Below, one piece after another: positions 5,810 to 53,944 of a DNA stretch of 64,000 nucleotides. Position 1 is the first letter of the stretch; each line of letters starts with the position of its first letter. The notes under the pieces are model-generated. The model worked only from the letters and a program-made list of their open reading frames with translations. It did not search any database and was not told the origin of the DNA. The position numbers and the translations under genes were made by a program. The stretch is from assembly GCA_015956445.1 (NCBI GenBank), contig WIUZ02000018.1, positions 1 to 64,000 of the forward strand, given 5' to 3'. Source of the DNA: Thelephora terrestris. Its lineage: Eukaryota > Basidiomycota > Agaricomycetes > Thelephorales > Thelephoraceae.

Positions 5810-6859
5810 AAGATGTAGTCCATGTTTACAAATCTTGCACGGGGTGAGTAGATGTGCGGGCACGCGATTAGGGTATGGAAACATACCTCTCTCCTTTTTG
5901 TAAGTCGACAACACCATTTTTACGAACGAAACCGTGCTGACAGACCACCGCACCCACGCCCGACACAGAATAATCTTTTGAACACTTTGAATTTGCATGG
6001 TTGACCGCATGGAACTTGGTCCCACATGTCTCGATCTGTTGGAACATGAGTACCGGGCCAAATACTGGAACAGGCTGGAGTTCCTTACATCGTCCTCGTC
6101 GGTATGTCTCTTGAGATGGGCGCTGAACTTTTCCACGTTCACAAAGTACGCCAAGCCGGACCCGAGCTCTGGATCTATGATCCCGCGCGTCTTCTGCTTG
6201 AGTCTGAAGTTTGCATCTATTGCAAGGAAAAGACTATACAACCACCTGTAAAGGAAAATCACTGAGCGCCGCGGTATAAGACAACGGGAAGATAAAAAAC
6301 ACTTTATCACCCGATTCGTTCTCCCACTCCGAAGGTAGATTCCGTCCTGGATGTGGACACGCTGGGCACTCAATCGCCAGAGCCCCGTCACCGAGCTCAT
6401 CAACCGCTGCAGAGGTGTGGCCTGCCGCCCCTCGCTTGATGTCCTTGAGGTGACGCCATTGTTGAACACACCGTGATATCTCATGATATCTATACTGGTG
6501 GAGATGTGAGCTACATGGCTGACATAACCATGACCTATCAATGGACGTACCTGGATCTTTGTACATCCATGGTTGTCCGTTTTTTGCATTATTGCAGTGT
6601 AGAAGTCGTACAAGTTCAACTTCCCTTGCATTGATATCTTGTGATACGTGTCCATGAGATCGAAGGTGAAGACGGTTTTGGGCTGGAGGGTCGATGCTGG
6701 GAACCAACGAACCCTCAGTAACTGGCGGAAATGATCCAGGAACGCGGTGTGGGGGCAGGTGCAAAATCGAATGCGGACGGAATGGTAGCCAGAAAGATCG
6801 ACGACGAAGATATGTTTGGTTTCTGTCAGGGCCACTCTACCCCAACAACTACCAGTGCA

Positions 6860-8200
6860 CTGAGCCGACTCCGCAGAGTACTCACTAGTTCAACTAGCTT
6901 GTGAGAGAATGGCCACGTCTCTATTCTTCTGGTAGGTTGTCCGAGGTCACTACAAGTCAGGTCGAAAGCCTAAAGAGAAACCCAACCTAAACCGTACTTC
7001 GTTCGGTTTAACACGCAAGGGTTTATCTCTACAACAGGCTTGATGACTCCACCAGGTGATCGACTGGACGCTCGAGGTGTTCTATATGGTGAACGCTGAG
7101 GTTCTATAGTTACGAGGCGCAGCTGACGCGCAGAGCGGGAGGGAGAGCAGATGGGGGATGTCTTGGATCAAACAAGAAACTCTGACTTGTCCTTAACTGC
7201 AACTGGGCTGAGAAGGGCAGAGGATTTCCTGAGGTAACAAAACTAAGGTACTACGATACAGCCACAGTTGCTACTTATACTAAAGGAGTGGCCATGACGT
7301 CAATACCCTAATATACCCTTATCAAGTCCGAACAAAGGGAGATAAGGAGTGTGTGAACGCAAAGTAAGGGAAGCGAACAGATATGATGCGTGGGAGAATA
7401 AAGGACAAAGGGCCTTACTAGCGTGTGAAGGATTGCATAATAGATAAGAAATGTCCGCATGAAACATAGGGGTAAAGATAACACTAGTCCAAAAGGAATA
7501 AGAGCATGGGGTCATAAAAGTTCGTTCCTGGGGATCTCACCCAAGGGCCAGGTGTCAATCTCCCTTTACATGGCCTCTGCCAGCTGGATTTGGGAGTAGA
7601 GACATTCAACATCCCTTGTTGTCTGTAGGCGGTAACAGCATCACGGACTAGTGGCAACCTCAACGTACGTCCGAACATGAGGAGGTCGGGCCTAGACTCA
7701 TGGGACATGAGGGATTACAGATTCGCCGGCGTTTCACGCTAACGGCTACTTCTACATTCGCTTAGCTAGACAAAAGGAGTCTAAGGCACTCCTTCCAAAT
7801 AACGGCGATTCCTTCCTCCAGTTAGGAGACTGTGATGTGACTGTCCACGTGTGTGATCAGGGTCCAGGGTTGATCGTAATTGTAAAGTCATGAGGGGTCG
7901 TAAAAGGGGTTCGTGATGTCATAACGGGGTCATCAGGGTCTTGAGACCTATTTTTAGTGTGCGCGCGTTCTAGGCGTTCCGGAACGAAGTTCTTCCAAGG
8001 CCGTCCCGCGGGCCGAGGTGTCAGCTTGATGTAGTAAGCCAACGATGATGGTACAGGGGCGGAAGTTGATGTGACCCGGACCAATGAGGTTCGTCGAGGT
8101 AGGTCACGTGAAGGATCACCGATCTAGGCTATAAGAAGGACGTCTTCTTGGAGCCATCCTTGATCAGCAACACCAGCAACTTCCCCATCATCTTACCAAC
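6860..8200 (+). other. E1 leader region without coding signal
   Basis: About 1.3 kb between the element start and its gene. It has no convincing open frame. The last 350 bp before the ATG at 8,201 are conserved in E2 and end with GGCTATAAGAAGGACG about 70 bp upstream of the ATG, a plausible TATA-type promoter context. Basis: sequence; promoter role inferred. Confidence 0.45.
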
Positions 8201-9802
8201 ATGTCTTTCCCAAACAACCACACCTACAAAGTCGCCAATGGTATCTCCACCATCTCCCGTATCGACCGCCGTGCCGCCAACCGCAAGACCTACGCCAGTG
8301 AGGCGGGGGTTCCCTATACCACTGATGACCAGGTATGGGGGAGATCTAGTGCTTCTTGTGCTTGCGCTAACTTTTCCCTCTAGGTAGAGGTTTCGTTCTT
8401 TTGGCGTTGATGTCAAGCTAACGGCTTCTAGATCTTGGAGGTTGTCAAGAAGGTGGACGCCGAACATCTCAGGGAGACGATCCCTCATTTGATGGGGTTG
8501 ACCTGGGACGATGAGCTCTGGGTCCGATCCATGATCGCCGAGAAGGTGATCTTTCAAATGAGGGGTAGGTTCGGGGAGCTGGAGCATCCGATCAAGAAGG
8601 AGCTCTGGTATACCCTGCAGAGGGGGATCTACGATCAGGACCTGTTGGAACACGGAGCAACCGTTCCTCGAGCCGTCCGCCATGCCACCGCTTCCACCAC
8701 GCTGTTGTGGTCGCTCGTTCGGGAGGGAGAGAGCCGGGTAGGTTCTCTGTTTGAATATTTGAGTATGACTCTCGACTAATCAAACTGCCTAGGTTGAACG
8801 TTTGGAGCGCGAGGTGAAGGAGGCGAAGGCAGACGTCCTTTGTCTGTCGGCGGAGGGTCTTCTGATGAAGGAGACTCTGGCCACCTTCCAACAAGGGACA
8901 AACGAGGCGTTGGAGGCGATGGTTGCCAACCATCAAGAGTTGGTCGCCGGGCTGAAAGTCAGGGACAACAACATCAAAGGGGCACTGGCCAGGAGGGATG
9001 AAAAGGTTCTTTCAGCCTTTGCAGGTTTATGCAATGACTGAGAGACTTCCTTTAGACTGAACAGCTCGAAGACGTGGTGGCCGTGTTAACTGCGCAGGTC
9101 GCGTCCTTGCAGGATAAGACCTGCAACTGCAAGGAGGGTCCGGTGTTGGTTGGTCAGGGAACTGCCGATGTTCCGTTCGAGCTGGAGTATGCCGACGAGG
9201 TGGTACTTCCGTCGCCTAACCCGTCGTCCTACACGACGCCTCCAGTAGAGAACGCGGTTCCCGTTCCGACTCCGGCTCCGGCTTCTACGTTGGCCGAGTC
9301 CGACAAGGAAAACTGTCGGCGCTGCCCGTTGCAGCCGATCAGTCAGCTGGTCAAGATCAAGGATGAGGTCATGGAGGTAGATTGGGCCGAAGATGTTCCG
9401 AGGGCCATTGAGGTACGTCCGGTGACAACAGGGCAGCGTTGTAAACGCTCTCGACGCCGTGTTGCTCATCGCATGGCTCCCTCGGCTAACCCTTATCCGT
9501 GTCCAGTTGAGTCGGATGGTGACCAGTCTGGTCGAGGTGGGGGACAAGAGTTCCGCTATCGGGTCAACCGTCCCTACCGACAGGTCGAGTCGGAGATCCA
9601 GCTTCGCCACCAGCTTCGACTCGCAAGACAGGATCCTACCCAGGGGTCCGACGAGGGAGACGGAGGGTCGCTCGTCGACTACGTCGATAGTGCTGCCGAG
9701 CAGTCACCCGGTGATGGAGATGTGGGACCAGGTGTTCCAGAGTTCAGTGACATCTGGGAGGCTGATCGGTCCGCTCGAAGGCATCTCTTCCTATCGGCTT
9801 GA
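8201..9802 (+). CDS. Intron-bearing coiled-coil protein carried by the LTR-like element E1
   Basis: Four coding blocks (8,201-8,332; 8,432-8,737; 8,793-9,005; 9,065-9,802) are separated by 55-100-bp gaps with GT...AG borders that keep frame, giving about 462 residues. Block 1 is a short polar N-terminus. Block 2 is a compact domain (DDELWVRSMIAEKVIFQMRG, then KELWYTLQRGIYD). Block 3 is a long charged coiled coil (VERLEREVKEAKADV onward). Block 4 has CNCKEG, CRRCP, a basic patch KRSRRR and an acidic Ser/Gly-rich tail. It resembles no gag, pol or known transposase that I recognise. A near-identical gene is in E2, and a divergent relative with the same block-1/block-2 junction is in E3 and E4. 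Function unknown; a nucleic-acid or self-assembly role is only a guess from the coiled coil and basic patch. Confidence 0.65.
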
Positions 9803-10772
9803 ACTAGTCGTTCAGCTGAGTGCCGAAGATGGTGACGCCATGTTCGGGGAGGTCCTTGCGAGGAGGGGCCATCACTATGATCTCCGGGATGGACGATTGA
9901 TGACCATTAGGCCTGCCGTGGATAGAGTTGACTTTTGATGGACTTTGGATAGCACCGTATATAGCCATGTTGTTACGATTCGCTGGGAATGGTACGTGCG
10001 TTTGTGTGTTTGAATGATTGGTGTGAAGGATAAGGAGTGTGAAGTGTTCAAAACATAAGAATTGGTAAGAAAAGTTCGAAGAAAGAGCATGTTATAAAAA
10101 GTTTAAAAGGGTCAGCTTGAGTCGCTATGACACAGGATCCCTCACGAACCTGAATTTTGTGGAGTGGGAGGTTCCGATGGAATGAGACTGTGCACGCCGA
10201 ACAGCGCATTGTCCCCCCAAAACAGCTGTTACATTTGAAAGTAGCTGGGTGGCGCGAGCAGTCTGGGCATGGTATGGAAGAATTTGACGCGTCGCCCAAA
10301 CCATCCAGACGGAGCAACTCGTCAAGAAATGTTGATCGATGCTGAAGCCACTGCTTCATTTTCGTCTAGAAAGGCGGATGAGTTTAAGGTGGAGAGGGGG
10401 AAATGACACACTTACACTATCGTTTTCCTTGATGGTCCTTATGCGTTTCCGCCTTTTGCCTGGTTCCCTAACGGTTTTGGAGGGAGACTCAGAATCTGCC
10501 AGCACCCCGGTCTCCTCGACGACATCAACCTCGGCCCTTCCCGGGTTATTGCTCGTCGGTGATTCTTCAGACGGGGATGCCTGGGAATAATGCTTTATAG
10601 TTTTCCTACTCCCCTTGACACGTCCTTTCTCAGAAGACGAGATGTTCCAGACGCGAACGTGTTCAAAGGTCTTCTTATCGTCGTTTGGGCTGATGGTAAA
10701 CGAGTCAAACGTCGTGTTGCCTTTTCTTTTCTTGCGACCGGATTTGATGCCGCTCGCCTGGCGTTTGAGCAT

Positions 10773-13465: not shown

Positions 13466-14396
13466 CTAAGACAAGACCTCAATGGAGTCGGCAGCAAGGC
13501 GAGAGTTGTAGAGACGTCTCGCGTACTCCCACGAAGGGAATTTTTGATGAATGCTCCCTGAGACGCCGGTGACCCACGGTCTACATTCGTGCCTGGACGA
13601 TATCAATGAGGTGATCACAAGAGGGCTTTGAGAGAAGCTTACCAATCGAAAAATATCCCCACGTACAATCCTTTGCTGACAACATAGTATACGGCACGAT
13701 CTGTGACCCCGGTCGCCGTTGGAGGGACGAAATAAGGACCGGGGACACCTACCAGAATGAATTAGGGGTTGTTGTCTAATTGAGGCGAGGTACAAACCTG
13801 GCCGAACAAACTCAGGATGATGGGTATAGTCGGGACAGCCGACAAAGCGCCTAGTAGATACGATGAGAGGGTAGCGGCCGTGCATGGGGGCAGGGGTGTT
13901 AACGAGGGTTGGGGTTGGGGCCGGAGTGGGGGTCGGACCTGCTTTTGCGGTGGCAGCCGGAGCGGGCAATCAATCGATGACTCCACGACGAGGATGGGAT
14001 GAAGTGGTTTCCTCACTGGTACTGGAGACAGTGGAGGAGGTTGATACCAAGATTGCACCAAAGTCTTCAGACCACGGCTGGCGGATGGACTCTGGAAGGC
14101 ATGGATGAGTGCTGTAACAAAACACTACGAGGGAGACAGGACTTACCTGGGCCGATCCCAAGATCGTGGTCAATCGCAAGACCATTGAAGTGGAAAGATA
14201 CATCCGCTCCAGCAGCATCCAGCAGATGATCAGCCCTCGTTGTAAGAGTGTCAAGAAGGTCACGAATGCTCCTCAACTCGTCCTCAGGGAGCTGGACCAT
14301 GAGGAAGGACGACATACGAAGGAGGCTGTCGCAAATTTTGAAGGCAGAGTCAGCGGAGAGCTCAACAGAAGGTTCGGGGGTGTGTCGGCGGGGCAT
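13466..14396 (-). pseudogene. Viroplasmin/RNase H1 N-terminal-like protein of KDZ-A (one in-frame stop)
   Basis: Cargo gene. From ATG at 14,396: exon 1 (14,147-14,396) encodes an acidic helical region (LPEDELRSIRDLLDTLTTRA); exon 2 (13,798-14,091) is Ser/Thr/Pro-rich; exon 3 (13,643-13,748) has the core VYYVVSKGLYVGIFFDW; the last exon, after the acceptor GTCCAG, continues HECRPWVTGVSGSIHQKFPS then WEYARRLYNSR. This matches the fold signature of the caulimovirus-viroplasmin / RNase H1 N-terminal domain (YYVVxxGxxxGIfxxW...V.G..g...F.s...A). An intron splits the Trp codon (TG|G) exactly as in the KDZ-B copy. An in-frame TGA at 13,972-13,970 interrupts exon 2, so this copy is probably dead. The order and strand relative to the KDZ and RNWY genes match KDZ-B. 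Confidence 0.75.
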
Positions 14397-15859
14397 CGCG
14401 AGGCTCAGAGACAGCAGGAGAGTTGCAGGGGAAGAGGCACGCTGGGGTAAAATGTGATGGGGGGCGGGGAATAACCACAGCTTGGATTCAACGGGATTTA
14501 AGTGTTCGGAGAGGTGTGATTTTGGGTGTATGAACATCTTGAAAGGGGTTGAGTGGGAAAGGAATCCCAGCGGGGAGGTTACGTGGCTTCAGCAACGAGC
14601 GACAATCCTCCAGGACTAGAAGGTCAAAGTTTCAACAATCAACGTCAAGGTCACGCGATCACCAGCCACCGGTCGCCGCCGATCTGCTCCCTGTCCTGAC
14701 TTCGTGAAATCAGGTCAACAAACAATCGTTTGGACAGTAGCCATGAGAATATGGATTGACCATTCCCATTTTGTTCATATTCTTATATCCCGGACTAACT
14801 ACGAAACAGATTGAATCTTGATAAGAAACTTTTGCATCGAAATTGGTGTGACCATTGCTTGCACGAGCACGTTTCCCTGCAAGAGTATCGAATCCGTCAA
14901 GCTCAAGGCGTCACGCGTCATGCATCATGTCAGTCTCTTTTTTATGTGCTCGGACGCTGATTTTCCAAAAGCAGTTGTGTGCCGACATCCCGTTCCGTTC
15001 CATCGTGTCGTGGAACGTGAATGGTGTCCACTGAGCACTGAGGCACGCAGCGTTCGACCGTGCATATTGCCTCCCAGCTGTAACGCTAGGCACTCTGCAA
15101 CACTACATCTGGGTGCGTAACTTCCTAGATTGTGACAACGGCTGATTCCCCCCAGGAAGACTTCCTATCTAGGGGACCGTCTGTACGAGATTGATCGTGT
15201 TAAAGATGGTCATATGCGACTCCGAAAGAGACCACATGCAGGACGTCGGCGTCGACCACCACAATATAGGGACGTTGACAGACGCAACGGGCGTTGACTG
15301 AGCTTGTTGGCCATCAGGCGTAACGGTCGGCATTCCAAGACGCTACCGTTTGGTGCACGGGCTTCCAGATTTTGGTGCAACTTCTGAAACCCTCAAGGAA
15401 GACTACCCATCTAGGTGCTCGTCCGTACAGGATTGGTTGTACCGGCCGCAACCGCATGCAACGCCGAAAGAGATCCTCCCTATATCGACTGAGGCAACTG
15501 GCATCGATTAACGGGTTGCCCTCCGCGGTTGTAGCTTTGAAATCTCCATCAGGCATGTCGCTCTCTAACCTCTCGCAGAAGAATGAAATCCTAAGCAAAA
15601 TATATTTTATCTAGGTAAACGAGGATTGCGCTGATTGACACACCAGACCGTCGTTACGCGTTGTATGTCTTACGGACTTCGGCAGAACATGAAAATACCT
15701 CAAGAAAAATATTAGCTAAATACCTACCTTCTGAATTAGCGTAGCGGGAGATGTTGTCGAGGGGTGAATAAATTAGAAGGGTTGTCGGCCTGCATTTGAT
15801 TACACCAACCCCCCACATTTCCTCACCAATCCTTGCCCTTACAATCGTCTCATCGCGCA
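14397..15859. other. Divergent intergenic region of KDZ-A with an imperfect duplication
   Basis: Lies between two divergently transcribed cargo genes (only 180 bp in KDZ-B). No coding signal. It contains a diverged direct duplication of about 220 bp with period ~241 bp: AGGAAGACTTCCTATCTAGG near 15,157 and its variant near 15,398, each followed by CGTCTGTACGAGATTG- or CGTCCGTACAGGATTG-like sequence. Confidence 0.5.
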
Positions 15860-17250
15860 ATGGCACCTAAGAGTAAGAAACCTCCTCCAACCCCAGCAGC
15901 GAAAGTGGATCCCAAGGCTTCCAGGGCTGGGTGGAAAACTGGAGAGCAACTCGAATGGATGCTGACCCATTGGTCGAAATATCTTAACCATCAAAACGAG
16001 AAGTCGCTAGAACGTTTCTGGCCACACATTTACCATGGTTGGCATACCAAGTGGCCGATCACCCCCAGCTCTGAAGCCGTGGCGCTGTACGGATCCAGGA
16101 AAGAAGCAGTACTTGTTCTTCGCATGGAAATCAACACTGTGCGTGGCACGAACTCCTCCTTTCATACCTCTGTCGCTGATACCCTTCGTTAGAAAATTCG
16201 CACTTGGTACCACAACCACGGACGCCCGAGTTCCAAAGCTGGCAAATAGGACCTACGGCTGGATCAAGGCGAAAAGCGAAAGCTTGCTCCAGTACAATTC
16301 TACTGTACCTACGCCTGGAACAAGGGCCTTGGGGATATCGTCATCAAGCGATGGAACGTTCAGAAAAGCTCCTACATGTCAACGGACGATGAAGACCCCG
16401 CCGCCGACACGATTCAATCACCTGCATCCAGGTCGCACATCCCCATCAACTTCAAAATCAAGATTGCGAAGGAGCAATACGACTTGTTAACTCCTGCGCA
16501 GAGGAAACACATCGACAATCTCCGCGAGGCAGAACTCAAGAAGCAGTACAGGCCAATACCAGACATCAGTGACGAGACCGAGAGAGTTGAGAAACTCCTC
16601 ATACACCAACGGTTAGAGTTCCCTACCACCTACCGTACCCTACTGATCACCTACCAAATCCAGAAACCAGCCATCGGTCGCGGGCTCGATGCTACGCATC
16701 CTCAAGAACCTTGAAGATCAGGCAGGGGGCATCGCGGTTTTAATGGTTGGACACATAAACCCTGCAGACGGATTCACAACTTTCCAAGGGTATGTTCGGA
16801 TGCAGTGCAACCCATCGCTTTGTCTGATGCTTGTTTGACCCAGGTATTGCCAAGGTAAAACGAGCGAGGACCTGGACTTCCTTGATTTCTGTGGGGACGA
16901 GTGGGACATCACTTTGAAATGGTTCAGAGAGTGGGGGATGACTGTATTTGGCGGTAGGTATCTTCCAGTGGCGGTGAAAGAACACATGCTTACTCTCCCT
17001 GTTAGAATTAGACACCAAGCGTCGTGCTATGTTCTTGCTCCCTCCCGACAACCAGGGGTCCACATCGTCTGCCTCGCGCCCCGAGGGCTCTGATGCCATA
17101 GTCACCAACCAGCTCCCGGAAACACTGCTTGGGTTTGGTGGCAGTGCAGACGGACCCGTTGGGGAACCTAGCACAGCACCTCATCTCCACGTCTCCGAAA
17201 CAATGCAGGCCGTTCAGCTGTGGTTGTCCACATTGTTAGCTTTGACATGA
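15860..17250 (+). pseudogene. RNWY-type multi-copy hypothetical protein of KDZ-A (in-frame stop, 3' truncated)
   Basis: Five exons with frame-consistent GT-AG introns: 15,860-16,138; 16,193-16,611; 16,664-16,789; 16,844-16,953; 17,006-17,250. A Lys/Pro-rich N-terminus is followed by an N-terminal helical part, then KIRTWYHNHGRP at the start of exon 2, the counterpart of RLRNWYSYHAGP in the KDZ-B copy, and VGHINPADG, the counterpart of VGGPSPDGG. A TAG in frame at 16,247-16,249 breaks exon 2. The apparent stop at 17,248-17,250 is the first three bases of the inserted repeat unit that begins TGATAACTGCC, so the original C-terminal part is gone. Function unknown; this type of protein is widespread and multi-copy in Agaricomycetes as I recall. 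Its position beside KDZ suggests it is transposon cargo. Confidence 0.75.
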
Positions 17251-20200
17251 TAACTGCCCTCCTGCGTTGTGTAGTTTGAGGCGATAACTTTCTTCTGGCA
17301 CTCTTTTGACAACGAGCGTCAATAACCGGTCGAAAATCAAATTACCAAATTGGGTAGGGCCTCTCGACCCTGCCGGTACCCCCTCCCGTGCTTTCCCGCA
17401 GGCCGATAGGGCCTCTCCCTCACCGTAGATGGCAACATCTACCCTACATATGTACAGATTTGATACTTAGATAGGACTCCCTGTTCCCCTTCCTAATAAA
17501 CGACGTGTTGCAGCCGTGCGAAACGAGGACTTCGCAAGTGATGGCGCGATGTACGGCCACGATCAGACACGCCCCGAGAGCTGGCATCTGATGTGCGCCT
17601 CCAGGTCGATTCCAGCCAAGAAATGCTCCTCCTCCCTCCCTGGGACTAATCCTCGGGTTCACCGACGTGCTGCGGCCGCGAGAAGGAGGATCCCTCACGC
17701 TCATCGGCTCACGCGCTCCCGATTTCGTTGATTGGCACCCGATGCACTGTAATCACCCTGCCCGTTTCGCCGTCTCGTCCTTCCCTCCCCGCGATCCACG
17801 CAGTGTCAGCGTTCAACTCTCCCGCCCACCAAAAGTGGTCTAATGTGCCTCCCAGGACACCCGATTCCGTTCCCGATTGAGGGATGCGTCCAAGGAATAG
17901 GTAATCTCATTTCCAGTGCCCAAATCTAACCTTTTGCTATGACTCTTTCAAACGGGACTCCCATCCAGGAGTCTTTCGGATTTCCTACTCTGCGTGCGGA
18001 TCGCTCGGCAGACGCTCTCATCTTCCCATTCCGCTTTTAACCCCTCCCGGATTGGTAATCAACGCTCTCACTCATCTGCCACCTCGCTCATCACGTCCCT
18101 CCTCGAGTGGGTCATTTTCCAGCTCGGTAATTCTCCTTCTCCTTCGCTAGCTTTCTCGTCTGTTGCGTTCCCCACTTAGCACCCGGTACCCTTCTATCCC
18201 GTTGCATCATCCTCCTGCCACGCCTTGGATTCGTTAGCGGATATCTCGGGATCCGCGCTTCTGTCCCGAACGGTAATCTAGTTTCTTCTCATCTGTTTTC
18301 CTATTTATCATGTCACCCAGATCCTCCCTTTTTGATTGGTCAACGGACGCCAACTTCTCCCGATCCGCTCGTCCCTCCTGCCTTGTCCATTCATTCACTT
18401 ATCGCCCCGCTGCTGAGTATCCTGCCGGAATCATCCACACCCGTCGTTGACTTATCGCCTGACCCAGATCTCCTGCTCCTGATTGGTCAATGGACGCTAA
18501 CTTCTCCCGATCTGTTTGTACCTCCCTTCCTGTCCGTTTACTTATCGCCTCTCCTGGTGAGTATCCCTGCGGAATCTTCCACACCCGTCGTTGGCTTATC
18601 GCCTCACCCAGATTTCCTGCTTCTGATTGGTCGACGGACGCCAACTTCTCCCGATCCGCTCGTGCCTCCCTCCCTGCCTGTTTGCTTGTCGCCTCTCCTG
18701 CTGAGTATTCCGCTCGTCCCTCCCTCCGTGTCCGTTTACTCACTTATCGCCTCTCCTGCTGAGTATCCCGCCGGCATCTTCCACAACCGTCGTTGACTTA
18801 TTGCCTCACCCAAATCTCCTGCTCCTGATTGGTCGATGGACGCCAACTTCTCCTGATCCGTTCGTACCTCCCTTCCTGTCCGTTCACTTATCGCCTCTCC
18901 TGGTGAGTATCCCTGCGGCATCTCCCATATCCGTTGTTTACTTATCGCGACCCCCCAGATCCTCCCCTTCTGATTGGCCGATGGTCGCCACCTTCTCCCA
19001 ATCCGCTCGTCCCTCCCTCCCACCCTCTGCGTCTGGTCATCATTGCCTTCCCCGTTGAGCATCGTGCACCTTCTATCCTATCACGTGCCTCCCATCACTC
19101 GTGTTCAATTGGCCAACAAGCATCCCCGCCTTTACAATCTGCTTCTTCCTTCTTTCAGGTTTTGCGAGCCCCTTCCTCCCACGTCTCCCAGTGGCTACGC
19201 TTCTCGCATTTCCCGGTGGTCACGCCTTTCGCTGGCTGGTAGGATCTCACGACTAGCCCTTTTGTTCCACCTCAGTTTGCAACCCACTTTCCGGTTTATT
19301 TGTTTTCTCCCTTATCGGGTCTATCGGCCAATCAACGCACCTGTCTCTGGACGGCTTTTCTCTCCAAGATCGGCAACCCACCTCCCGCAGTCGTTTATCC
19401 ACGCGGCATCTTCCATACCCGTTGTTCGCTTATCGCCTGACCCAGATCTCCTGCTTCTGATTGGCCGATGGACGTCAACTTCTCCCGATTCGCTCGTCCC
19501 TCCCTGTCCGTTCGCTTGTCGCCTCTCCTGCTGAGTATCCCCGCGGCATCTTCCACGCCTGTCGTTGACTTATCGCCTCATCCAGATCTCCTGCTTCTGA
19601 TTGGCCGATGGACGTCAACTTCTTCCGATTCGCTTGTCCCTCCCTCCCACCCTCTGCATCTGGTAATTATCGCCTTCCCTGGTGAGTATTGTACGCATTC
19701 CGTGCTATCACGTGTCTCCCATCACTCGTGTTTGATTGGCCGGCGAGCATCCTCGCGTCCAAGGCCCGCTCCCCCCTTCTCCAAGCTTTGGTAGGCTGCA
19801 AGAGGAAGCGGCCCCCAAGGGGCTACGCTTCTCGCGTTTCCCGGGTGGTCGTGCCGCTCGCTAGCTGGTAGGTACCTCACGAATGGCCCTTTTGCTCCAC
19901 CCCAGTTGGTAACCCACTTCTCGTTTTATCCGTTTTCTCACAGCTTATCGTGTCTATTGGTGAACGAATATACCCATTTCTAGACGGCTCCTCTTGGCAA
20001 CCCACCTCCCACAGTCGTTTATCCACACGGCATCTTCCACACCCATTGTTGACTTATCGCCTCACCCAGATCTCCTGCTCCTGATTGGTTGGCAGACACC
20101 AACTTCTCCCAATCCGCTCATCCCTCCCTCCTAGCCCATTTATTCACTTATCGCCTCTCCCGCTGAGTATTCTGCTCGTCCCTCTCTCCTTGTCCGTTTA

Positions 20201-20715
20201 CTCGCTCATCACCTCTCCTGCTGAGTATTCCGCCGGCATCTTCCACATCCGTTGTTGACTTATTGCCTCATCCAGATCTCCTGCTTCTGATTGGTCAATG
20301 GACGCCAACTTCTCCCGATCCGCTCGCACCCTGTCCGTTTGCTTGTCGCCCTCCTGCTGAATATTCCGCTCATCCCTCCCCCCTTGCCTGTTTACTCACT
20401 TATCGCCTCTCCTGCTGAGCATTCCGCTCTCTTCTCCACCACGCGTCCACTTTGATCGAAATCGGCGGACAGATTCCACTTGTTCACGACCTGCCCCGGT
20501 TTGGTAATCTTTATCACCTCATCGACGGCCACGCTTTGATCAATCGACGGAAGATTCCCCTCTTCCCGACCTACTTCCATCCTCTCCCTGGCACGGCACG
20601 CACTCCCTACCTTCCCCCCCACTTACAGCACCTCCAACTGGCCCACGAACACCCAATGGTCTACCTCTCCGCACCCCTGCTGGGTGGTCAACTGCCTCTG
20701 CCTCGTTCACCCACC
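17248..20715 (+). mobile_element. Repeat unit L (TGATAACTGCC end), rich in minisatellite
   Basis: Starts TGATAACTGCC directly inside the RNWY-A gene. The same sequence, inverted, ends GGCAGTTATCA at 53,911. The first ~1 kb is unique-looking; from about 18,310 on it is a pyrimidine-rich array of diverged units built on words like GACTTATCGCCTCACCCAGA, CTCCTGATTGGTCGATGG and CCAACTTCTCCCGATCCGCT. The inner end is cut by element E5 at 20,716. Long open frames here result from lack of stops in a C/T-biased repeat and are not genes. No transposase or integrase is visible. It may be a solo LTR-like unit or a non-autonomous element; class undetermined. Confidence 0.6.
18310..20450 (+). repeat. Diverged pyrimidine-rich minisatellite array in unit L
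   Basis: Repeats of mixed length (roughly 120-300 bp) with a common core of a GAGTATCC(C)GC word, a CATCTTCCACACCCGTCGTTG word, an ATTGGTCGATGGACGCCAAC word and a CCGATCCGCTCGTCCCTCC word. The inverted counterpart in unit R (50,500-52,150) is much more homogeneous. Confidence 0.75.
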
Positions 20716-24800: not shown

Positions 24801-25118
24801 CCCTCCCGCTCTGCGCATTGGCTGCGCCTTGTAACTATAGAACCCCAGCGTTCATATTAGAACACCTCGAGCGTCCAGTCGATCACCTGGTGGAGTCATC
24901 AATCCTGCTGTAGAGATAAACCCTTGCGTGTTAAACCGAACGAAGTACGGTTTAGGTTGGGTTTCTCTTTAGGATTTCGACCTGACTTGTAGTGACCTCG
25001 GACAACCTACCGGAAGAATAGAGACGTGATCGTTCTCTCACAAGCTAGTTGGACTAGTGAGTACTCTGCAGAGTCGGCTCAGTGCACTGGTAGTTGTTGG
25101 GGTAGAGTGGCCCTGACA
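21825..25118 (-). mobile_element. LTR-like element copy E2, full length 3,294 bp (fossil)
   Basis: Bounded by TGTCAGGAACATGG at 21,825 and AGAGTGGCCCTGACA at 25,118, with the 5-bp target duplication TCTAC on both sides (21,820-21,824 and 25,119-25,123). The TG...CA ends and 5-bp duplication fit an LTR integrase product, most simply a very long solo LTR. It looks whole. It is nested in E3 and is nearly identical to E1, so it is young. Confidence 0.8.
22148..23744 (-). CDS. Intron-bearing coiled-coil protein carried by E2
   Basis: Reads leftward from ATG at 23,744 (MSFPNNYTYKV) to the stop at 22,148, with the same four coding blocks and intron positions as the E1 gene at 8,201-9,802. The conserved landmarks are DDELWVRSMIAEKVIFQMRG, the coiled-coil block, CNCKEG, CRRCP and KRSRRR. 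Differences from E1 are scattered substitutions, mostly conservative, suggesting the frame was held recently. It has no recognisable retroviral or transposase domain. Function unknown. Confidence 0.6.
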
Positions 25119-29885: not shown

Positions 29886-30636
29886 ATCTTCCTGTCTACC
29901 ATGAAAGACGAGGGGATCAAGAATGTCAAGGTTTCCTATGATATCGCGTGTCGTTGGTCAATCAAATTGTTCCAACGGATCCAAAGTTATTCCGATGAGC
30001 TCCAGATTCCTGAGGACAAGTTTTCGCTGGAATATTTCATCCCCAAATTTCACCTCCCTGTGCACAGACCAAGTTGTCACACGCGGTACTCGTTCAACTA
30101 CCGCCCAGGTGTCGGACGTACTCATGGGGAGAATATTGAATCGGGATGGGCTCACACCAACCCGGCGGCGATCTCTACACGAGAGATGGGTGCTGGCGCA
30201 CAACACTCGGCACTTGATGGTCATTGGGGAGGATGGAATTGGCGGAAGATTGTTGGGTTTGGTAAGTGTTTACACGTCACATGAGTTGACTTCTTGCAAC
30301 GACTAACATACCAATGGCAGGACCGCTGTTGTTGAAAAACTTGTGTGAAGCTGTTGACATGGCAAAAAAGTGTGACGACGCTTGTTGGGATTTCGATGAG
30401 CACAGGCCCTCTGGAATGATCTACGAATGGAAGATGTTGAAACGCAGGTGGGAGATAGACCCCTCACAGCCGGACCCATATGAAGTCGTTGAGAAAGGTA
30501 GATTCACTGGTCTTCCCCCACTATATTCGGTCGTTGCTGACTCTGGTTCTCACAGCTTCAAACTTCAGTTCCGCAAAACGAAAACTTTCAGAGGACAAAG
30601 CGCTTGATCTCGCAGCCAACAACACACCCCCCCACA

Positions 30637-30643
30637 AACTGTC
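30637..30643. repeat. Target-site duplication AACTGTC, left of KDZ-B
   Basis: AACTGTC directly precedes CAGTAGTCC. The matching copy is at 41,438-41,444, after GGACTACTG. An 8-bp reading (AACTGTCC) is possible if the first C belongs to the target. Confidence 0.85.
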
Positions 30644-31793
30644 CAGTAGTCCTTATTGAAATTTTAAAAATCTCGTGGTCCTTGCCCGCGGTTTTGACTT
30701 TTTTTGTCCAGGCCCAATTCTGAAACTGTAGGGGAGGATCCTACTTACTTTTACTCGGCCGGGTTGTTTCAGCACTGGCCCAGTGAGGCCAGGTCCGGTC
30801 AATATGACCCTCGGCTATTTGCACCGGCCCCAGGATTGATCTGGGGGTGACAGACGTGGGAATTCGCTTCCAGCTGGTTCCTCCCCGGCGCTTCGTCCCA
30901 TCAATATCCTTCGGTAGGACGATCGGCCGTGGGAACCAGCCATCACGGGCCTCTCCTGGTTCCTCCCGGCGCTTCCTCCAGTAAATACCGCCCTCCTGGG
31001 CACCCGGTTGCCGGGTACTGGGTTGCAGGCTTACATAGTTATTTGTAGTGGTATTTGTACATAATAATTCAATTTATTTCACCACTTCTCTCGCTTGCGC
31101 CGCCCCAGAAAAAAATCAAAAAAAATCTCGAAAAAATTGCTGATAGGTACTTCACATATTCGCCAGCTCATCCCGCTTAAAACCGCTGTATTTTACGTAG
31201 AATTGAGCCCAGAAATCGTGTTTTAAATTCCTCCCGGGTTGATTGCAGGTGATCGGAATCTGCCGAGCCGAAGGGGGAAAGAAAAAGTGCGGCAGTGCAC
31301 CTGGTATTCCCTTTTTTTATACAAAATTTGTACCAGTAGGTAGCCAATGTATACTGCTCAAATTTCCGTTGCGTCCGAAGCACTAAATTGGTGTTTTCAC
31401 GCAGTGGCAGCACTGCCATTCCGTGCCGGCTCACTCGCGCGGGTTCCGGCGCCTAAAATCGCCCTCAACATAAAAAAACATATCGGCTACGCCGGATTTT
31501 CTGCTTTCTGACTTAGATATCCCCTTATTCCCTTGTATTTACTGTATTTAGCAATGGGTAACATACATCCACACAATAAAAGCAGGTTTCTCGCCTCTGC
31601 CAGCCTGCCTCTTGTTCTTGCTGCCAGCGACACTTTCCTTTTTGGGACACTTTCCTTTTTGGGAACTCAAACAAAAAAGTTGCTAAGTCCACGTCGCATC
31701 AGCGAAAACACAAGAAACATTCCATTGCAATCAAAATACGTTGTAGCTAGAGATAACACAAGAGGTAGCTACGTAAAAAAACCCGAAATTCAA
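30644..31793 (+). repeat. Left terminal inverted repeat of KDZ-B
   Basis: 1,150 bp, reverse complement of 40,288-41,437. It contains a GC-rich subterminal zone with repeated words TTCCTCCCGGCGCTTC and CCGGTTGCCGGG (about 30,880-31,020), which could be transposase binding sites. Its inner edge overlaps the TGA stop of the transposase gene. Confidence 0.92.
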
Positions 31794-34700
31794 GTCCAAA
31801 GGGGGGCGTCCAGATCGTCCAAAGCAACATCCACGTCATCCTCAAAATCCACTGGGTCCGGGTCGCTATCAGAGGGAGGGTCGTCGGTGAGGGCGTCTTC
31901 AGTCTCCGGAATGTCTTCTGTCCCAGCGGAGGAAGGAAATACAGAAGAGTGGTACATTTTGACGTTGGATTTGAGCCGGCGCCTTCGATTTTGGGCTGCT
32001 TCGGGGCGAGGGTATTTTGCAAGCCAGTGGGACCCGAGTGATTTGAGCTCCAAACATTTGTACCAGTCTGCAATGAAGACGTGAACAAGTTTCCGATAGA
32101 GCGCGGCCTGGCGTGCAGCGTATGCTCTCATGCCAACAGTGATCTCTTCATCAATGGTGGGCTCACCGACACGAGCCTCCCCGAGCTTCTCCCAGTTCCC
32201 TGCATTCCAATCAAAGAAGCAAAGGGTCCGTCGCATTTCCTCAACCAGTAGCTCTACCTCCTCCTGGAACCGTTCAGCACGAGCAACCGCCTTGCACCAT
32301 TCGACACGCATAACACCTTGCAACTGAGGGTCATTGATCCCGGTGTCAGGTTGTAGCGATCCGGTGTGCCAGATCCACGAAAGCTCCCGCCGTGATTCTG
32401 ATGTGTCTGTAGTCTCGCGCGAGGGTCCCCTGATGTCTTCCCGGCATAAGTCCTTGAGGTCATTCTTCCATGGAGAGAACTTCCCTTCGGGGTCGAGGCG
32501 GAGGAGGGCAGTGCGGGCATCACGGTAACGGGCAGCTGCTTGGTCAATCTTGAGTGCGAAATTTCTGAAGAGAGCCTTGGTTCTGGTCATCGTGCCTTGG
32601 GACGTTGAGACATGGGCCTGGTTCTTCACGAGGAGCACCTGGTATACACCACGCAAATGCCGAATGAGGTCGAGGGCGTCATAAGCTTGGGCAAGCCGGA
32701 ATCTGAGCTCAAGGCGGGGGAGGTTCCCAATGCAGGATGTATCACGAGAGGCAGCTGGAAGTTGCAATGGGAGCCAAAGTTTGACGGTCTTGGGGGCGTC
32801 GGTGATGGTGGTGGGGTCGATTTCGTCAAGGCGTGCAGAGGCTCCAGGCATATAGACCCGCTGGGGGGAGGTGAGACTCTTGATGGCTTGGGAGAGAAGA
32901 CGACGTTGATCACAGATGGTGGTATTGTCATTGGGGTCGAGACGTTTCGATCGCAGCCTCCGTCTAAGCCCGGGATGAGTTGACCTTAGGCTTGAGCACG
33001 GAAAGGTAGCCACTTACTGCTGTTCTTCAATCTCGAGGGCTCGCATGATAAACTGGGAGGGTGTTGTTTCATGCGCATGTGGCGTTCCAGACTTCTTGAC
33101 CGTTGCGTCAACCCGACCAAGTTCAGCCTTGAGATCATTGAGAGTTACGCCTGGATTGCCGTTCAAAAAGAGCAGGCGAAGAGATGAAAATACACTTACT
33201 TGGAGCAACCTCTTTGAATGGATTGGGGTTGGACGAGTCAAGGTCGTAGGCGTTCATCATCTCAGTCCAGGAGTGGATGAGGGCTGGATCGAGGGCTGCT
33301 GTGACGGCGGCTGCGATGCCGTTCTGGACCTTGCAGAGTTTCCAAGCTCTCTCTAGACTTTTCTTCAACAAACGACCTGGAAAGACGGAAATGAGAAACG
33401 CGGGGCAGTCGTAAAACTAGATGGACTCACGAAGATTGATGAGTTTCTTCCAGTTCCACCCGCTCCAATGAGTATCAAGAAGTGCTTGACGTGCTTGGGG
33501 CCCGTTCTCTCGCGACCACGTCGCGAGGGATGTGGAATGAGACCAAATCGTTTCAACACCCTCACCATGCGTCATGCCAACGCCTTGCATAAAAGCAAGA
33601 TTGTAATCGAGGTGGCAGGAATTCCCGTGCCCGATCAGGTGAAACTTCGGAACTGCAACGCGGAAAGATTGTAGCGAATCGAGGTTGACGTCCTTGGTAG
33701 CCTTGTACCTTGCCAAACGCTCACGAAGGTGGCGACCCCATTGACAAGCAATGTCATACGTGACAACAAGGTGTGGAACCCCCATCTCTAACTCATGGGA
33801 AACAGTGGAGGCGAAGGCATAGTCAACATTCAGATATCTGCAAGGGGATAAGTGGTGAGCGGTGGATGTCAGATATTTGCTTACCGTTCACCCTTTTGAA
33901 GATCAGCGACACCAGTTGGACGAACGAAGGAATGGCGACAAGAGACGGCGACAACACCAGTAACGCTGTAGCCCTTCGGGTCGCGGGTATATGCTTGGTC
34001 AACAGCGCGGAGGTCTGAGCCACAGGACGTTCCCTGTAGATGGCGGTGAGCGATGCAGCGGATGCAGATGCAGCCTACACACGTACCGTCTCTTCAGACA
34101 CAGTACCAGCAGGGTCTTTGAGATGAGCGGCGTAGTCTGCAGAATTCACCATATACGTGAGGCCGGTCCCAAGGTCCGGGTCCGTGATACCCCGGTCTTT
34201 GAGCTTTGTCTTGAAGCAGCCATCTATGCCCAGGGATGTGGTATTGAAATGGCTAAAGATCACATTGTAGTGAGTACAGTGAGTACATCAGGGTGTTACA
34301 AACAGACAACAGCGTCAGGCGTACATCGGGTGTTTCGAGTCAAGTACAGTATTCTTTCCTGGCTGGGGACACGCGGGACAGAGAACAGCAAGACTTCCGT
34401 CCGACATAGAATCGACCCCGCCACAGCAATGGCCAGCCCCGCCGCGCTTAAAAAGTTTCAAGTGGCTCCAGAGACGAAAGACAAGACAGATTTCGTTGTA
34501 TCGGAACTTCGGAGAATCAGTTGTGCCTCACGCGAGAGCAGTGAGCATAAACTCACTATTTCAGGTTCAAGCTTCGCGTTGTTTGAGCGCTGCATGATTG
34601 TGTGATAGAAGTTGTATGAATTGCACTTGTTCTGGTCTTGAAGCTTGTGGAAAAAGTCAAGCAGGTTGAACGAGAAGGACGTTGAAGGGCGAAACACGGT

Positions 34701-35475
34701 GGCGGGAAACCAACGTGCTTGAAGGAGTTGGATTTGATGCGACACTGAGCTGGATGAGCAATGGCAAAACCTGACAACGATGCGGTGGACCCCGTTTAAG
34801 TCGAACACTGTTTGATCGATGGGTTTCGACGGATTGGAGCATGAGGTGCTGAGTTTGTGCCCGAGCTGAACGACATGGCCAAGGGAAGTCAAGGTGGTGG
34901 GCTCGAAGAATGAGCCAGTCCATTTCTGCGGAACGTAGTCAGCAATGTTGAAAACTGGGAAACGTGAGGACGTACCTCGAGAGAATGAAGTGGATGGGAC
35001 TCGTGGTCTTGAAGGATGCATTCTTTACAAGTCACCTCCCCGCCGAAGCAATCCTTGCAGCGGTAGATAGCGCCAACTTTACACTCCCCGCAAGAACTCC
35101 TTGTCATTCCTTTTTTGAGACCCTCCAGGCGAAGGAGTTCATCCAGGAACTGCTTGCGATGTGGAAGCCATTCTTCAAGCAACGTCTAAGAGTGTGGTCA
35201 GAACAGCCAGAAAACATTTAGAAAAACCTTACAGAGGAAGAGCGGCTGGGTCCCTTGGCGTTGGGTGCAGTAGAATTGGCCTCGGTGAGATCATTGAGGA
35301 AAGGGTCGTTGGGGGGAGAGTCGTCAGAGAAGGTGGGGACAAAAAGGTGACGCTCGAATGCCCGTTTTTTTACAACCTTGCCAGCAACAACATCGACGGA
35401 GGTAAATACGACGCTGCCGGGGGCGCCGACTTGTGAAAAATCGGAACTTGCTGAGCGTTTGCGGGTACGTGGCAT
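31790..35475 (-). CDS. KDZ-superfamily transposase of KDZ-B, apparently intact
   Basis: About nine exons reading leftward. Exon 1 (35,233-35,475) starts MPRTRKRSAS. Exon 2 (34,976-35,185) holds the CxC2 cysteine cluster (CGEC, CKDC, CKEC with HESHPLH). Exon 3 (34,557-34,925) has VFDLNGVHRIVVRFCHC, RWFPATVF, YNFYHTIMQ. Later exons contain CPACPQPGKN, LGIDGCFKTKLKDRG (likely catalytic Asp), GVADLQKGER, YDIACQWGRH (second Asp), FHLIGHG, GMTHGEGVETIW (likely Glu), WSGWNWKK, IMRALEIEEQQ. The last exon (31,790 to about 32,970) is helical with a Pro/Asp-rich acidic tail. I found no stop or shift in the exons checked. Start chosen at the first ATG in a basic N-terminus; an upstream in-frame ATG (35,634) looks less likely. 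The stop TGA lies within the left terminal repeat. The protein would excise and insert the element in the nucleus. Catalytic assignments are inferred from the family. Confidence 0.9.
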
Positions 35476-36680: not shown

Positions 36681-37876
36681 CTAAGAACTGGCCACAAAGA
36701 CTGAGCGGTTTTTGAGAGCCTGGGTCACAGCATTGTACGCAATCTGTTTTGTCTCAACGCGATTCCAGACTGGCTCTTCGATACCATAAATCGAGGATGC
36801 CACCAAAGCCCTGAGATTGATGAGCAAGGTTGCTCGGTTTGGCGAGCGAAACTCACCAGTTGTTGAATACGCCAACGCGCCTGCCGACTGCCACATAATA
36901 CCAGCCAGTCGCATCTCCAATCTCACCTGGGGAGGGGTGAACAATTACTTCATCCTCCTCGCTATGGGGTCCCCTATATTGGAGGAAATGTTTGAGGTCT
37001 TCGAAATCGGTGTAACGTTCCTCGAAGATCGGAGTGATGGGAGGTGTATTGATGTAATTACGAGGGTGAGTGGGGATGGTATGACCACCCCTTCCGCTCA
37101 ACGAAGGGAGCAAGAAGGGAGGGGACTGCGCGGAAGGAGCTGGGTGAGAAGCGACCTTTGGAGAAGGACCCGGGAGAGAAGCGACCTTTGGAGAAGGACC
37201 TGGGAGGGAAGCGACCTTTGGAGAAGGAGCCGGGAAGGAAGGGGCCTTCAGAGAAGGAGCCAGGAGGGAAGGGACCTTCGGAGAAGGGGCCGGGAGGGAA
37301 GGAACCTGAACGGAAGGGGCCTTCAACGACGGAACCTTTACCGAAGGGGTCTTAAGTGAAGGAGTTATTTTTACCAGGCTTGAAGTTCGAACGGGGGGGT
37401 GACTGTGCTCGTCTTCGGAGTCGCTGGAGTCGCTGGAATCGCAATCAACGGCACTCTGAGGCAGCGAGTGAGAACGTTGAACAGGAGCATTGACAGGTGG
37501 CAGGGCGGGATGATTGGTGCCGGCTTGATTCTGACGCTGGGGTCCAGATGGCAACAAAGGAGTCGCAGAGGCTGGAACAGCTGAGGAAGTAGCAACACGG
37601 CGAAGCGGTACCTTTGGCCTATAGGAAAAGAATCAGGTAGTGGCTGCGACCAGTTGTGTTAGCGCGCCGTACCTTCCAATTTCAACTACCTCGTTAGGGA
37701 AAACCGACTTGACGCGGGCCTCAAACTTTTCAAGAACCCGAGTAACTGGAAAGCGGTGCTGAGCGGTAAGTAAAGAGGGGAAAAAAATGAGTCTCAACCC
37801 ACGTACCTCCAGGCATGCCCCTCTCAAGCAACAGATGATCCAACGCTCGCATCGCTTCTGCCTCAGGGTCGGACAT
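36681..37876 (-). CDS. Viroplasmin/RNase H1 N-terminal-like protein of KDZ-B
   Basis: Four exons (37,807-37,876; 37,673-37,745; 36,857-37,618; 36,681-36,810), all frame-consistent, giving about 344 residues. The N-terminus (MSDPEAEAMRALDHLL) is helical. The middle is a tandem Pro/Ser/Lys array of ten-residue repeats (PSLKAPSVQV, PAPSPKVPSL, LPGPSPKVAS types; about 37,120-37,350) and an acidic CDSSDSSDSEDE patch. The C-terminal ~60 residues carry GWYYVAVGRRVGVFNNW, then ALVASSIYGIEEPVWNR and KQIAYNAVTQAL, the signature of the viroplasmin/RNase H1 N-terminal domain. An intron splits the Trp codon at the same place as in the KDZ-A homologue. Such domains bind RNA/DNA hybrids or dsRNA in RNase H1; no catalytic RNase H domain follows. 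Role in transposition unknown. It shares a 180-bp divergent promoter with the RNWY gene. Confidence 0.8.
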
Positions 37877-38056
37877 CATGAAGACGTGGCACGAAAGGTC
37901 GACTTCCGCTTAGTCTTGGTCTGTCTCGGTTATTTATTCCTTCGTTGATTTGTTTGTTGATTTGTTTGTTTGTTTGGTTCTTGCCCCATTCAGGCACTCG
38001 GCACTTGATCTTCTCTGTGCCTCTTTTCCCCGTCTTTCCTCTGCGCCTCTCCTCTG
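37877..38056. promoter_or_regulatory. Divergent promoter between the two KDZ-B cargo genes
   Basis: Only 180 bp separate the two start codons (37,876 minus, 38,057 plus), so both promoters must overlap here. A TTTG/TTGA-rich tract with repeated TTTGTTTG (about 37,945-37,980) lies in the middle, followed by a pyrimidine-rich leader before 38,057. No clear TATA box. The promoter role is inferred from gene layout. Confidence 0.6.
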
Positions 38057-40291
38057 ATGTGGACCAGCAGCGCTGAGTCCGCCTGGCCCACCGATCGCAT
38101 CCCTTCCTTCCGTGAAGTAAGGGACACCCGTGGCAAACAAATCCAAGAATGGCTCTTAGGTACTGCCCCTCAGTTTCTTGCCGCTTTCCCTGAGCACCCC
38201 ACCAGGGAAACTGATGCATTGGTGAAGGTACGTGCTAATTTTTTTTGTTTCGAACGCATCTCATCCATCCTCCTTCGTTTAGCGACTCCGCAACTGGTAC
38301 TCCTACCATGCTGGCCCCCGTGTTGAGATGAGAGGAGAAACCGACTCCAACAATCGCAGTACACCTGTCGCCCTCAAAATCCCTGTTGTTATGAAGCGAA
38401 GGAAGCCAACTCGCCTCGCCCGCTGGCAAGCCTACTCTCGAATTTACTTCAAAAAGGGCACCTCCCTCCATAGCGAACTCCATTCCGACCATCACGATCT
38501 ATTGGCTGGCGATGACGCCGCTCTCGCAAAATACGTGTATCTCTTTCCCACTCTTGATGATTCCAACCTGTGCAAAGTCCCCTGGTTACCATTCTACCAA
38601 GCTGTGATGCAGATGCGGGTCAAGTGCTCCAGTGAAGAGGAAACACTTGCTGTTAAGGCTTACGTCGAACGGCGCTACAAAAAAGAGGTTGATCTGCACG
38701 ACCGGCCTTGGGATGCTTGTGCTAAGGGCGAGGATGATTCAGAAGCGGTGAAGAAGAATCGGTACCTTCGTTCGTGAGTACCATCTTTTCCATTACCCTT
38801 TCCTCCGCTGACGCAAACAACAGCCAGATTGAATCCCTCCCTGATTCGCTTCAAGCGGCCTGTCAAGAGGTTGAGTCTGTCACCAACTTCCGCACTTTCA
38901 TTCTCGTCGGTGGACCATCGCCAGACGGTGGGGGTGCTCTCTCGGTTTTGTGAGTCCAGCGTGGTCATTCGGTCAACAAGCAACAACAAGGAGACTTCGA
39001 ATCGTACCTGGGTGACTTGTTTCCGATCCTCAAGGAGAAGTGGTGTCAATGGTTGAATACCACGTACAGTGCGTATAATGTTTTGTTGACCAACGACTTT
39101 CTAACCATCTCTCGTAGCATCCGAAGAACTAAATCAACCCTCCATGTTGATGTCAACTGCTTTGCCCACTGCTAGTATCTCTCCTTCTCACGACACCCCA
39201 TCTGCTGAATCACATCATTCTCCTCCCCTCGCCACCTCTTCGCGGACTGGCCTCAATATGACCACAATGCCCGAGATCCCTCCTACCCCTCCACCGACAC
39301 AACGCGCGAGGCCAACCCAAAAGAGCAAGCCACCGAAGCCATCTGTGCCTTCCCCCTCTGCACCTCGCCAGCGGGCCTGTCGTACTAGCCGCAAGGGCAG
39401 TGGTCACTCTGGGGATGATGAAGAGCATGAGGATGATGCAGAGCCCAAGGACGATGAAGAGCACGAGGATGATGAAGAGCAAGAGGATGACGAAGAGTGC
39501 GAGGATGACGATGGGCAGGATAGTGATGTCGACGAGCTTGCGAGCGATGGAAAATCTGAGGGCAGCGGAGCACATGAAACGACTGAAGATCCGTGTTTCG
39601 ACACCTGGGACCTTGATGAAAGACACCCTGAGTTCCTTCATGACGGCAAGGACTTCTTGCTCAACGTCCATGGCGATGATGAGTGGGGATCTCTGCTGTT
39701 GAGGTATGTTGAGTTTGAAGCAATTGCACCTCCTGTGAGTACTTCACTTTCCTTTCATGCTCAATGCTAATAGTACGTTCCGTGCAGCGCAAACTGACAA
39801 CATTCTCCCGTCCTGACCAAGTTGGGTGGTGGCTTCGCATCGGCCGTCGCTCGTTCGACAAGAGTCCACCAATCAAATCGCTTGAGAAGTACACCAAGCT
39901 TTGGATCTGTTGGTGGACCTCCCTTCAACCGGACTGGAGGAAGACTGGTCGGTGGCCACTACCCTGCAGGGTTCCCGTTCATGGTGGATGGGACGAGCTT
40001 TTGGCTGGGGGGAAAGATGGACTGTTCATCGTCGTCATGACCCTTGCTTGGTGGTCCAACGCGCAGGCCGAGATGGAAGGCGAGTCTCACCAGCTCGAGG
40101 CAGCTATCGCTGACGTTTCGTGGGTCTTGTCCAACCTTCTGTCGGTACTCTCACGGGAGGACTCCATCTCACCCCCTGCCACTATTCGTCACTCCACCCC
40201 CCCCTCGACCCCCGCCTCTCTCAAACGAAAGGGTGGTGTTGCGCCGAAGATTGGACCCCCGGGGAAGCGTCGCCGTACCTCTAAACATTGA
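38057..40291 (+). pseudogene. RNWY/W-rich multi-copy hypothetical protein of KDZ-B (one in-frame TGA)
   Basis: Five exons: 38,057-38,227; 38,283-38,773; 38,824-39,068; 39,118-39,734; 39,788-40,291, totalling 676 codons with consistent phases. The order is an N-terminal helical segment, RLRNWYSYHAGP, a basic stretch (RRKPTRLARWQAY), a helical middle, VGGPSPDGG, a Pro/Lys-rich linker, an acidic array of DDEEHEDD-like repeats (39,414-39,530) and a Trp-rich C-terminal domain (WWLRIGRRSF, WICWWTSLQPDWR, GGKDGLFIVVM) ending in a basic tail KRRRTSKH. An in-frame TGA at 38,951-38,953 lies close to where the KDZ-A homologue has an intron; unless it is read through or spliced, the product is truncated after about 260 residues. 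The final TGA falls at the inner edge of the right terminal repeat. Function unknown; nuclear location plausible from the basic tail. Confidence 0.8.
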
Positions 40292-41437: not shown

Positions 41438-41444
41438 AACTGTC
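41438..41444. repeat. Target-site duplication AACTGTC, right of KDZ-B
   Basis: Second copy of the 7-bp duplication; the KDZ-A coding frame resumes directly after it. Confidence 0.85.
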
Positions 41445-46228: not shown

Positions 46229-46289
46229 TTCAGCTATCTTTTCCCCATGGGTCATGGACCATACATCGTGACAATTCTCCATGGGTCAT

Positions 46290-53911: not shown

Positions 53912-53944
53912 CTCATTTTTCAAACAACGTGGACAACCATTAGT

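Follow-up and report, generated by a model that had tools for sequence, protein, structure and literature searches.

Do the two genes at positions 13466–17250 of the stretch considered here belong to a transposon, and if so, what do they do for it? The window, by which we mean all 64,000 nucleotides (nt) of the stretch from Thelephora terrestris, is intron-bearing and repeat-rich and reads as fungal. The two genes are VIRO-A, a viroplasmin-like gene on the minus strand, and RNWY-A on the plus strand, assigned to what we call the RNWY family (a working name defined in this analysis). A sequence-only reading of the same DNA had placed a conserved three-gene KDZ cassette at these coordinates. This was too narrow, since the transposase gene K1 of this element, KDZ-A, lies outside them at 5.8–10.8 kb. 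We consider it reasonably probable that KDZ-A and a second element, KDZ-B, are diverged members of the KDZ transposon superfamily, each equipped with a transposase and with two accessory genes of its own. It is very probable that this cargo is part of the transposition unit. The splicing of all genes is a model and not transcript data; it uses GT-AG introns of 46 to 72 nt, for some of which alternative candidates exist.

The most direct evidence comes from KDZ-B, a complete transposon of 10.8 kb (30644–41437) with all three genes inside. It is bounded by two perfect 1150-nt inverted repeats and a 7-bp target duplication, and its terminal sequences are CAGTAGTCC..GGACTACTG, i.e. CA..TG. The inner edges of the repeats coincide with stop codons, that of the transposase gene on the left and that of RNWY-B on the right. 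Because all three genes lie within the element and the outer two stop exactly at the repeats, the cargo can be assigned to the KDZ-B unit. The sequence-only reading had drawn the same conclusion from the layout of two elements; the boundaries of KDZ-B bear it out in a more direct way. The insertion site of KDZ-B lies within a third KDZ gene (K3), whose frame becomes unbroken when the element and one copy of the duplication are removed. The N-terminus of K3 is missing, and its 5' flank has been replaced by repeats.

The transposases are assigned by the KDZ domain (PF18758, Pfam cut-off 26.6 bits), which is found above the cut-off in KDZ-B (E = 1.4e-55, 188.8 bits) and K3. The truncated K1 scores just below it (2.2e-5, 24.7 bits). 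The characteristic CxC cysteine cluster is present as CxC2 in KDZ-B (2.1e-32) and K1 (1.2e-28). Several introns of the KDZ-B transposase gene have more than one candidate. Both viroplasmin-like proteins pass the cut-off of 21 bits for Cauli_VI (PF01693), VIRO-A with 39.7 bits (5.8e-10) and VIRO-B with 23.3 bits (7.8e-5). The C-terminus of VIRO-A corresponds to the N-terminal duplex-binding domain of RNase H1, and it also matches the N-domain of yeast RNase H1 (PDB 1qhk, E = 2.2e-7). An RNase H domain was not detected by Pfam in VIRO-B, nor in the N-terminal and C-terminal pieces of VIRO-A that were scanned. The VIRO proteins thus resemble RNase H1 and the caulimovirus viroplasmin in possessing the PF01693 domain, but differ in carrying it at the C-terminus and in the lack of a detectable RNase H domain. 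For the RNWY proteins, Pfam returned nothing above its cut-off with RNWY-B and no match with RNWY-A, scanned as two pieces.

KDZ-A is a worn copy. K1 is a broken transposase gene on the minus strand that ends at about 5.8 kb, its C-terminal half lost. A tblastn search with residues 84–156 of the KDZ-B transposase matches it at 10359–10135 (41% identity), and a candidate intron occupies the corresponding place in both genes. The second intron of VIRO-A has a weak donor site. RNWY-A is in frame apart from a single TAG. A long repeat that begins near its stop codon (17221–20686) may, as a working hypothesis, be the right terminal repeat of KDZ-A. It has an inverted copy at 53939–49688, with 95% identity over 17221–18532 and a terminus in common; the window showed no left partner for it. 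The two members of this inverted pair measure 3.5 to 4.2 kb and contain subrepeats mostly 139 to 202 nt apart. Their outer ends both read ..GCTGGGTG, and their inner ends resemble each other in the region of the RNWY-A stop codon. The copy at 49688–53939 adjoins another repeat starting at 53946. K1 is also interrupted by one copy of a 3.3-kb repeat element, of which another copy lies near K3. Full or partial copies were seen at 6824–10108, 21843–25118, 20733–21707 and 53946–54589, and two open reading frames (ORFs) of this element have no Pfam match.

Order and strands are identical in KDZ-A and KDZ-B (KDZ minus, viroplasmin minus, RNWY plus), in agreement with the sequence-only reading. It had also described the viroplasmin-like gene as following the transposase gene on the same strand; the strand is right, but in the direction of transcription the viroplasmin-like gene lies upstream. 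Three stranded genes allow 24 possible layouts, and by our own estimate a given one would be repeated about once in 24 cases, before counting clustering. The transposases are indeed diverged, with 44% identity over 197 amino acids (aa) between K1 and KDZ-B.

Are the cargo genes kin as well? Alignments were assessed by comparing Smith-Waterman scores with those of shuffled sequences (2000 or 5000 shuffles). VIRO-A and VIRO-B yield no BLAST match at E 1, and only 1 of 2000 shuffles scored as high as the alignment of their domains. Their last intron is in phase 2 in both genes and splits the same tryptophan codon. In the RNWY genes, the first intron is in phase 0 and lies immediately 5' of KIRTWY (RNWY-A) or RLRNWY (RNWY-B), the second is in phase 2 in both and, in the best local alignment, falls in one shared column, and the fourth introns are both in phase 1, the alignment of their positions not being established. 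The claim that both elements have a divergent RNWY gene therefore stands as to the gene and its orientation, but the motif reads RTWY in RNWY-A and the similarity between the two genes is not direct. We base their kinship on the introns they have in common and on a third locus that bridges them.

This third locus, L001, is a 6.3-kb contig (1–6337) and the only relative among 40 pattern matches obtained when prokaryote contigs were scanned with an alignment of KDZ; it was found via KDZ and not via the cargo. It is filed in a metagenome-assembled genome (MAG) of a cyanobacterium titled Rhizonema sp., from sample Dictyo3468. Because of its KDZ gene and a 48-nt intron, we take it to be fungal DNA, apparently. 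KDZ similarity extends over 1572–5001 on the plus strand, interrupted by stops, and the start of an RNWY gene runs divergently on the minus strand from 456 to the contig end. The 48-nt intron of this gene (RNWY-L) is in phase 0 and lies immediately 5' of RLKQWF, so that an intron at one place and phase is common to RNWY-A, RNWY-B and RNWY-L. In all three, this intron is followed by [KR][IL][RK]xW[YF] and then by a QxY stretch, a feature that was derived from these same three sequences. RNWY-L aligns strongly with RNWY-A (none of 5000 shuffles as high) and weakly with RNWY-B (31 of 5000). For the exon-2 parts alone, the shuffles scoring as high numbered 3 of 5000 (L-A), 4 of 5000 (L-B) and 16 of 5000 (A-B). 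The three loci, represented by partial genes, are nearly equidistant. Pairwise identities were 82 (L-A), 76 (L-B) and 85 (A-B) in 199 columns of KDZ, and 26, 24 and 21 in 95 columns of RNWY; by alignment score, the closest pair is L-A for KDZ (440 vs 438) as well as for RNWY.

The association of RNWY with KDZ thus extends to another organism. An RNWY gene lies beside KDZ in all three loci with both flanks readable, and a viroplasmin-like gene in two of them (K3 was left out of this count). The notion of a conserved three-gene cassette is supported within the window but not in L001, where no viroplasmin domain was detected in the roughly 1.1 kb between RNWY and KDZ, and for this reason the viroplasmin-like gene may be a variable part of the unit. 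In the MAG that contains L001, KDZ and RNWY occur on that contig only and Cauli_VI was not found; 388 genomes drawn from the order of this MAG returned just the L001 contig again (1/388). Scans of viral contigs revealed no relative, nor did a search of plasmids with 221 aa of RNWY-B. Hidden Markov models (HMMs) derived from the cargo, run against the 1496 ORFs of at least 30 aa in the window and L001, detected no further copy below E 0.3. The features of the window that bear on these comparisons are collected in the table.

Table. Features of KDZ-A, KDZ-B and K3 in the window
Feature	Position	Strand	Description
K1 (KDZ-A transposase), further part with CxC2 and the beginning of the KDZ domain	5835..6835	-	Pfam CxC2; tblastn with KDZ-B (pieces 5835-6805)
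3.3-kb repeat element inside K1	6824..10108		inverted copy 21843-25118, 92%
K1, N-terminal exons and cysteine-rich stretch	10150..10772	-	tblastn; intron place
VIRO-A	13466..14396	-	viroplasmin-like, 5 exons, 242 aa in spliced model, without frame break
RNWY-A	15860..17250	+	RNWY-family gene, divergent, with 5 exons; exon 2 has one in-frame TAG
Candidate right terminal repeat of KDZ-A	17221..20686	+	starts at most 30 nt from RNWY-A stop; end ..GCTGGGTG
K3, third KDZ gene, left part	29886..30643	+	KDZ 1.5e-31; host of KDZ-B insertion
Target duplication AACTGTC, left	30637..30643	+	
KDZ-B left terminal inverted repeat	30644..31793	+	1150 nt, starts CA; 0 mismatches to right arm
KDZ-B transposase	31790..35475	-	1069 aa model, spliced frame intact, GT-AG introns
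VIRO-B	36681..37879	-	viroplasmin-like, 345 aa, middle proline-rich, spliced frame intact
RNWY-B	38057..40291	+	divergent RNWY-family gene, 654 aa, spliced frame intact
KDZ-B right terminal inverted repeat	40288..41437	+	ends TG
Target duplication AACTGTC, right	41438..41444	+	
K3, right part	41445..42798	+	frame continuous without KDZ-B

The window contains other repeats as well. A near-perfect palindrome of 2.65 kb (2791–5440) has 1250-nt arms, a 150-nt middle and many CCTAA-like repeats. Two long palindromes (25461–28203 and 28204–29428) stand back to back within 25119–29773, a segment that ends in 350-nt inverted repeats. At 46229–49534, arrays of a 35-bp satellite run in opposite orientation and are open in more than one frame.

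The window itself supports the statement that KDZ-A and KDZ-B agree in the kinds of gene they carry and in how these are arranged. Several observations weigh against two related elements with a common cargo. RNWY-A and RNWY-B give no BLAST match (E limit 1), and their Smith-Waterman score is not above chance, with 172 of 2000 shuffles as high, or 448 of 5000 for the first halves. The third intron is not in the same phase in the two genes, and a fifth is present only in RNWY-B. RNWY-A, besides its in-frame TAG, stops without the C-terminal part present in RNWY-B, and KDZ-A has no proven ends. Leave-one-out HMMs of the RNWY family, tested on the untrained ORFs of the 1496, put the missing member at the top twice (E 0.037 and 0.012) and in the third test placed it second, behind an unrelated ORF (E 0.13), so that they reach no better than E 0.012. 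The closest pair by identity is, by narrow margins, A-B for KDZ and L-A for RNWY, as far as three partial genes can tell. The undetected viroplasmin domain in L001 counts on the same side. Single-sequence AlphaFold predictions for two RNWY-B exons were poor (mean predicted local distance difference test, pLDDT, 38.8 and 47.7).

How does KDZ-B compare with known KDZ elements? Kyakuja transposons, as presented in the part of Kojima (2025; PMC12730594) that deals with them, make 7-bp target duplications and have 5'-CA..TG-3' termini. Two Laccaria families are described there as having no terminal inverted repeats and as carrying a TET/JBP gene, which is thought to counter DNA methylation. KDZ-B resembles these elements of Agaricomycotina in its KDZ transposase, the 7-bp duplication, the CA..TG ends and the presence of an accessory gene. 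It differs from the Laccaria families in its 1150-nt repeats and in having viroplasmin-like and RNWY genes instead of TET/JBP (Pfam detected no Tet_JBP domain in any of the three KDZ-B products; the 1.2 kb between the transposase gene and VIRO-B was not scanned). From its sequence we would call KDZ-B Kyakuja-like without making it a member, as the termini and the duplication fit but the long repeats set it apart from the two Laccaria families, a trait that may or may not define Kyakuja. We ruled against Zisupton, for which PMC12730594 gives an 8-bp duplication; that of KDZ-B has 7 bp, and the eighth base is mismatched on either side.

The elements KDZ1, KDZ2 and KDZ3 of Cryptococcus neoformans, in the descriptions examined from PMC12810828, share with KDZ-B the transposase, a size of about 9 to 11 kb and terminal inverted repeats. 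However, their repeats are shorter (139 to 241 bp), their duplications range from 4 to 8 bp and their best cysteine cluster is CxC1; those descriptions mention no cargo. A closer parallel may exist in Pleurotus ostreatus. In the pertinent section of PMC4289320, one copy of helpo1.3 exceeds the others in length by 10.7 kb and contains capD, capE and capF. CapE is a viroplasmin (PF01693), capF an RNase H-fold nuclease and putative transposase, and inverted repeats flank capD and capF. Size, viroplasmin gene, nuclease and inverted repeats recall KDZ-B, although the genes were published as captured by a helitron. By analogy, the insertion may be a further KDZ-B-like element nested in the helitron, with capF as a putative KDZ transposase and capD as a candidate RNWY gene. 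In the literature searched, this was the only report of viroplasmin or PF01693 in fungi. Among the matches examined from this literature, which excludes the original KDZ and Cryptococcus KDZ1 papers, we found no KDZ cargo other than TET/JBP.

What the cargo does is a separate matter. A role in silencing defence is a tentative proposal. The VIRO protein, judging by its RNase H1-type domain, probably grips RNA duplexes. With a duplex-binding domain and no RNase H domain detected, it could coat double-stranded RNA of the element or RNA-DNA hybrids, mask them from Dicer or R-loop processing and in this way blunt RNA-directed silencing. It would then be an RNA-level counterpart of TET/JBP, which in other Kyakuja elements presumably works against silencing on the level of DNA. 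RNWY would be a second, divergently transcribed protein of the element, probably acting on its DNA or its expression. The terminal repeats are identical, and each outer gene stops where its repeat begins on the inner side, so that the transposase and RNWY messages would have the first part of a 3' untranslated region in common, which might allow joint control.

Alternatively, both cargo proteins could be transposition machinery that binds, for example, the long terminal repeats or the target, without any role in silencing. We hold this to be a serious possibility, with something less than an even chance of being right. Several DNA transposons require a second protein. The enclosure of three genes between the repeats, with RNWY stopping at the repeat edge, would suit such a function, as would the joint occurrence of RNWY and KDZ in L001, where the viroplasmin gene was not detected. 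On the other hand, an RNase H1-type domain indicates RNA duplexes over DNA ends (the 1qhk match and the relevant part of PMC12458480), and neither Pfam nor a PDB sequence search with the first 287 aa of RNWY-B revealed a DNA-binding domain in RNWY. All in all, a role in transposition proper and one in silencing defence seem about as likely as each other.

It is improbable that the cargo consists of functionless host genes that a common ancestor of both elements picked up by chance in a single event. The TAG in RNWY-A and the broken K1 would be in line with such decay, but the spliced frames of the KDZ-B genes are intact and the VIRO-A model is in frame, despite a transposase identity of only 44%. 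The introns were retained, and RNWY stands beside KDZ in a third lineage. Still less credible, indeed very improbable, is a layout that arose by coincidence or convergence from unrelated RNWY genes, with the genes at 13.4–17.2 kb unconnected to K1: RNWY-A and RNWY-B have no significant direct similarity and no KDZ-A boundaries were found, but two introns match in place and phase, L001 bridges the two genes and the viroplasmin genes share a split codon.

Taken to its full extent, the proposal of self-encoded accessory genes would imply a fungal KDZ class with its own RNA-level silencing defence, in which a stand-alone RNase H1-type duplex-binding protein, paired with RNWY, shields double-stranded RNA or R-loops of the element from Dicer and RNA-directed silencing, and which has been overlooked because parts of it were recorded as helitron cargo. 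We regard this wider claim as rather unlikely. The published helitron gene capture in Pleurotus could turn out to be a nested KDZ insertion. Mushroom genomes can be rich in KDZ elements; in Marasmius oreades, KDZ and Plavaka together account for about half of the DNA elements (PMC8290104). KDZ-B, intact and precisely bounded, offers three testable genes, and it raises the question of whether a transposon may use a duplex-RNA-binding protein to evade silencing.

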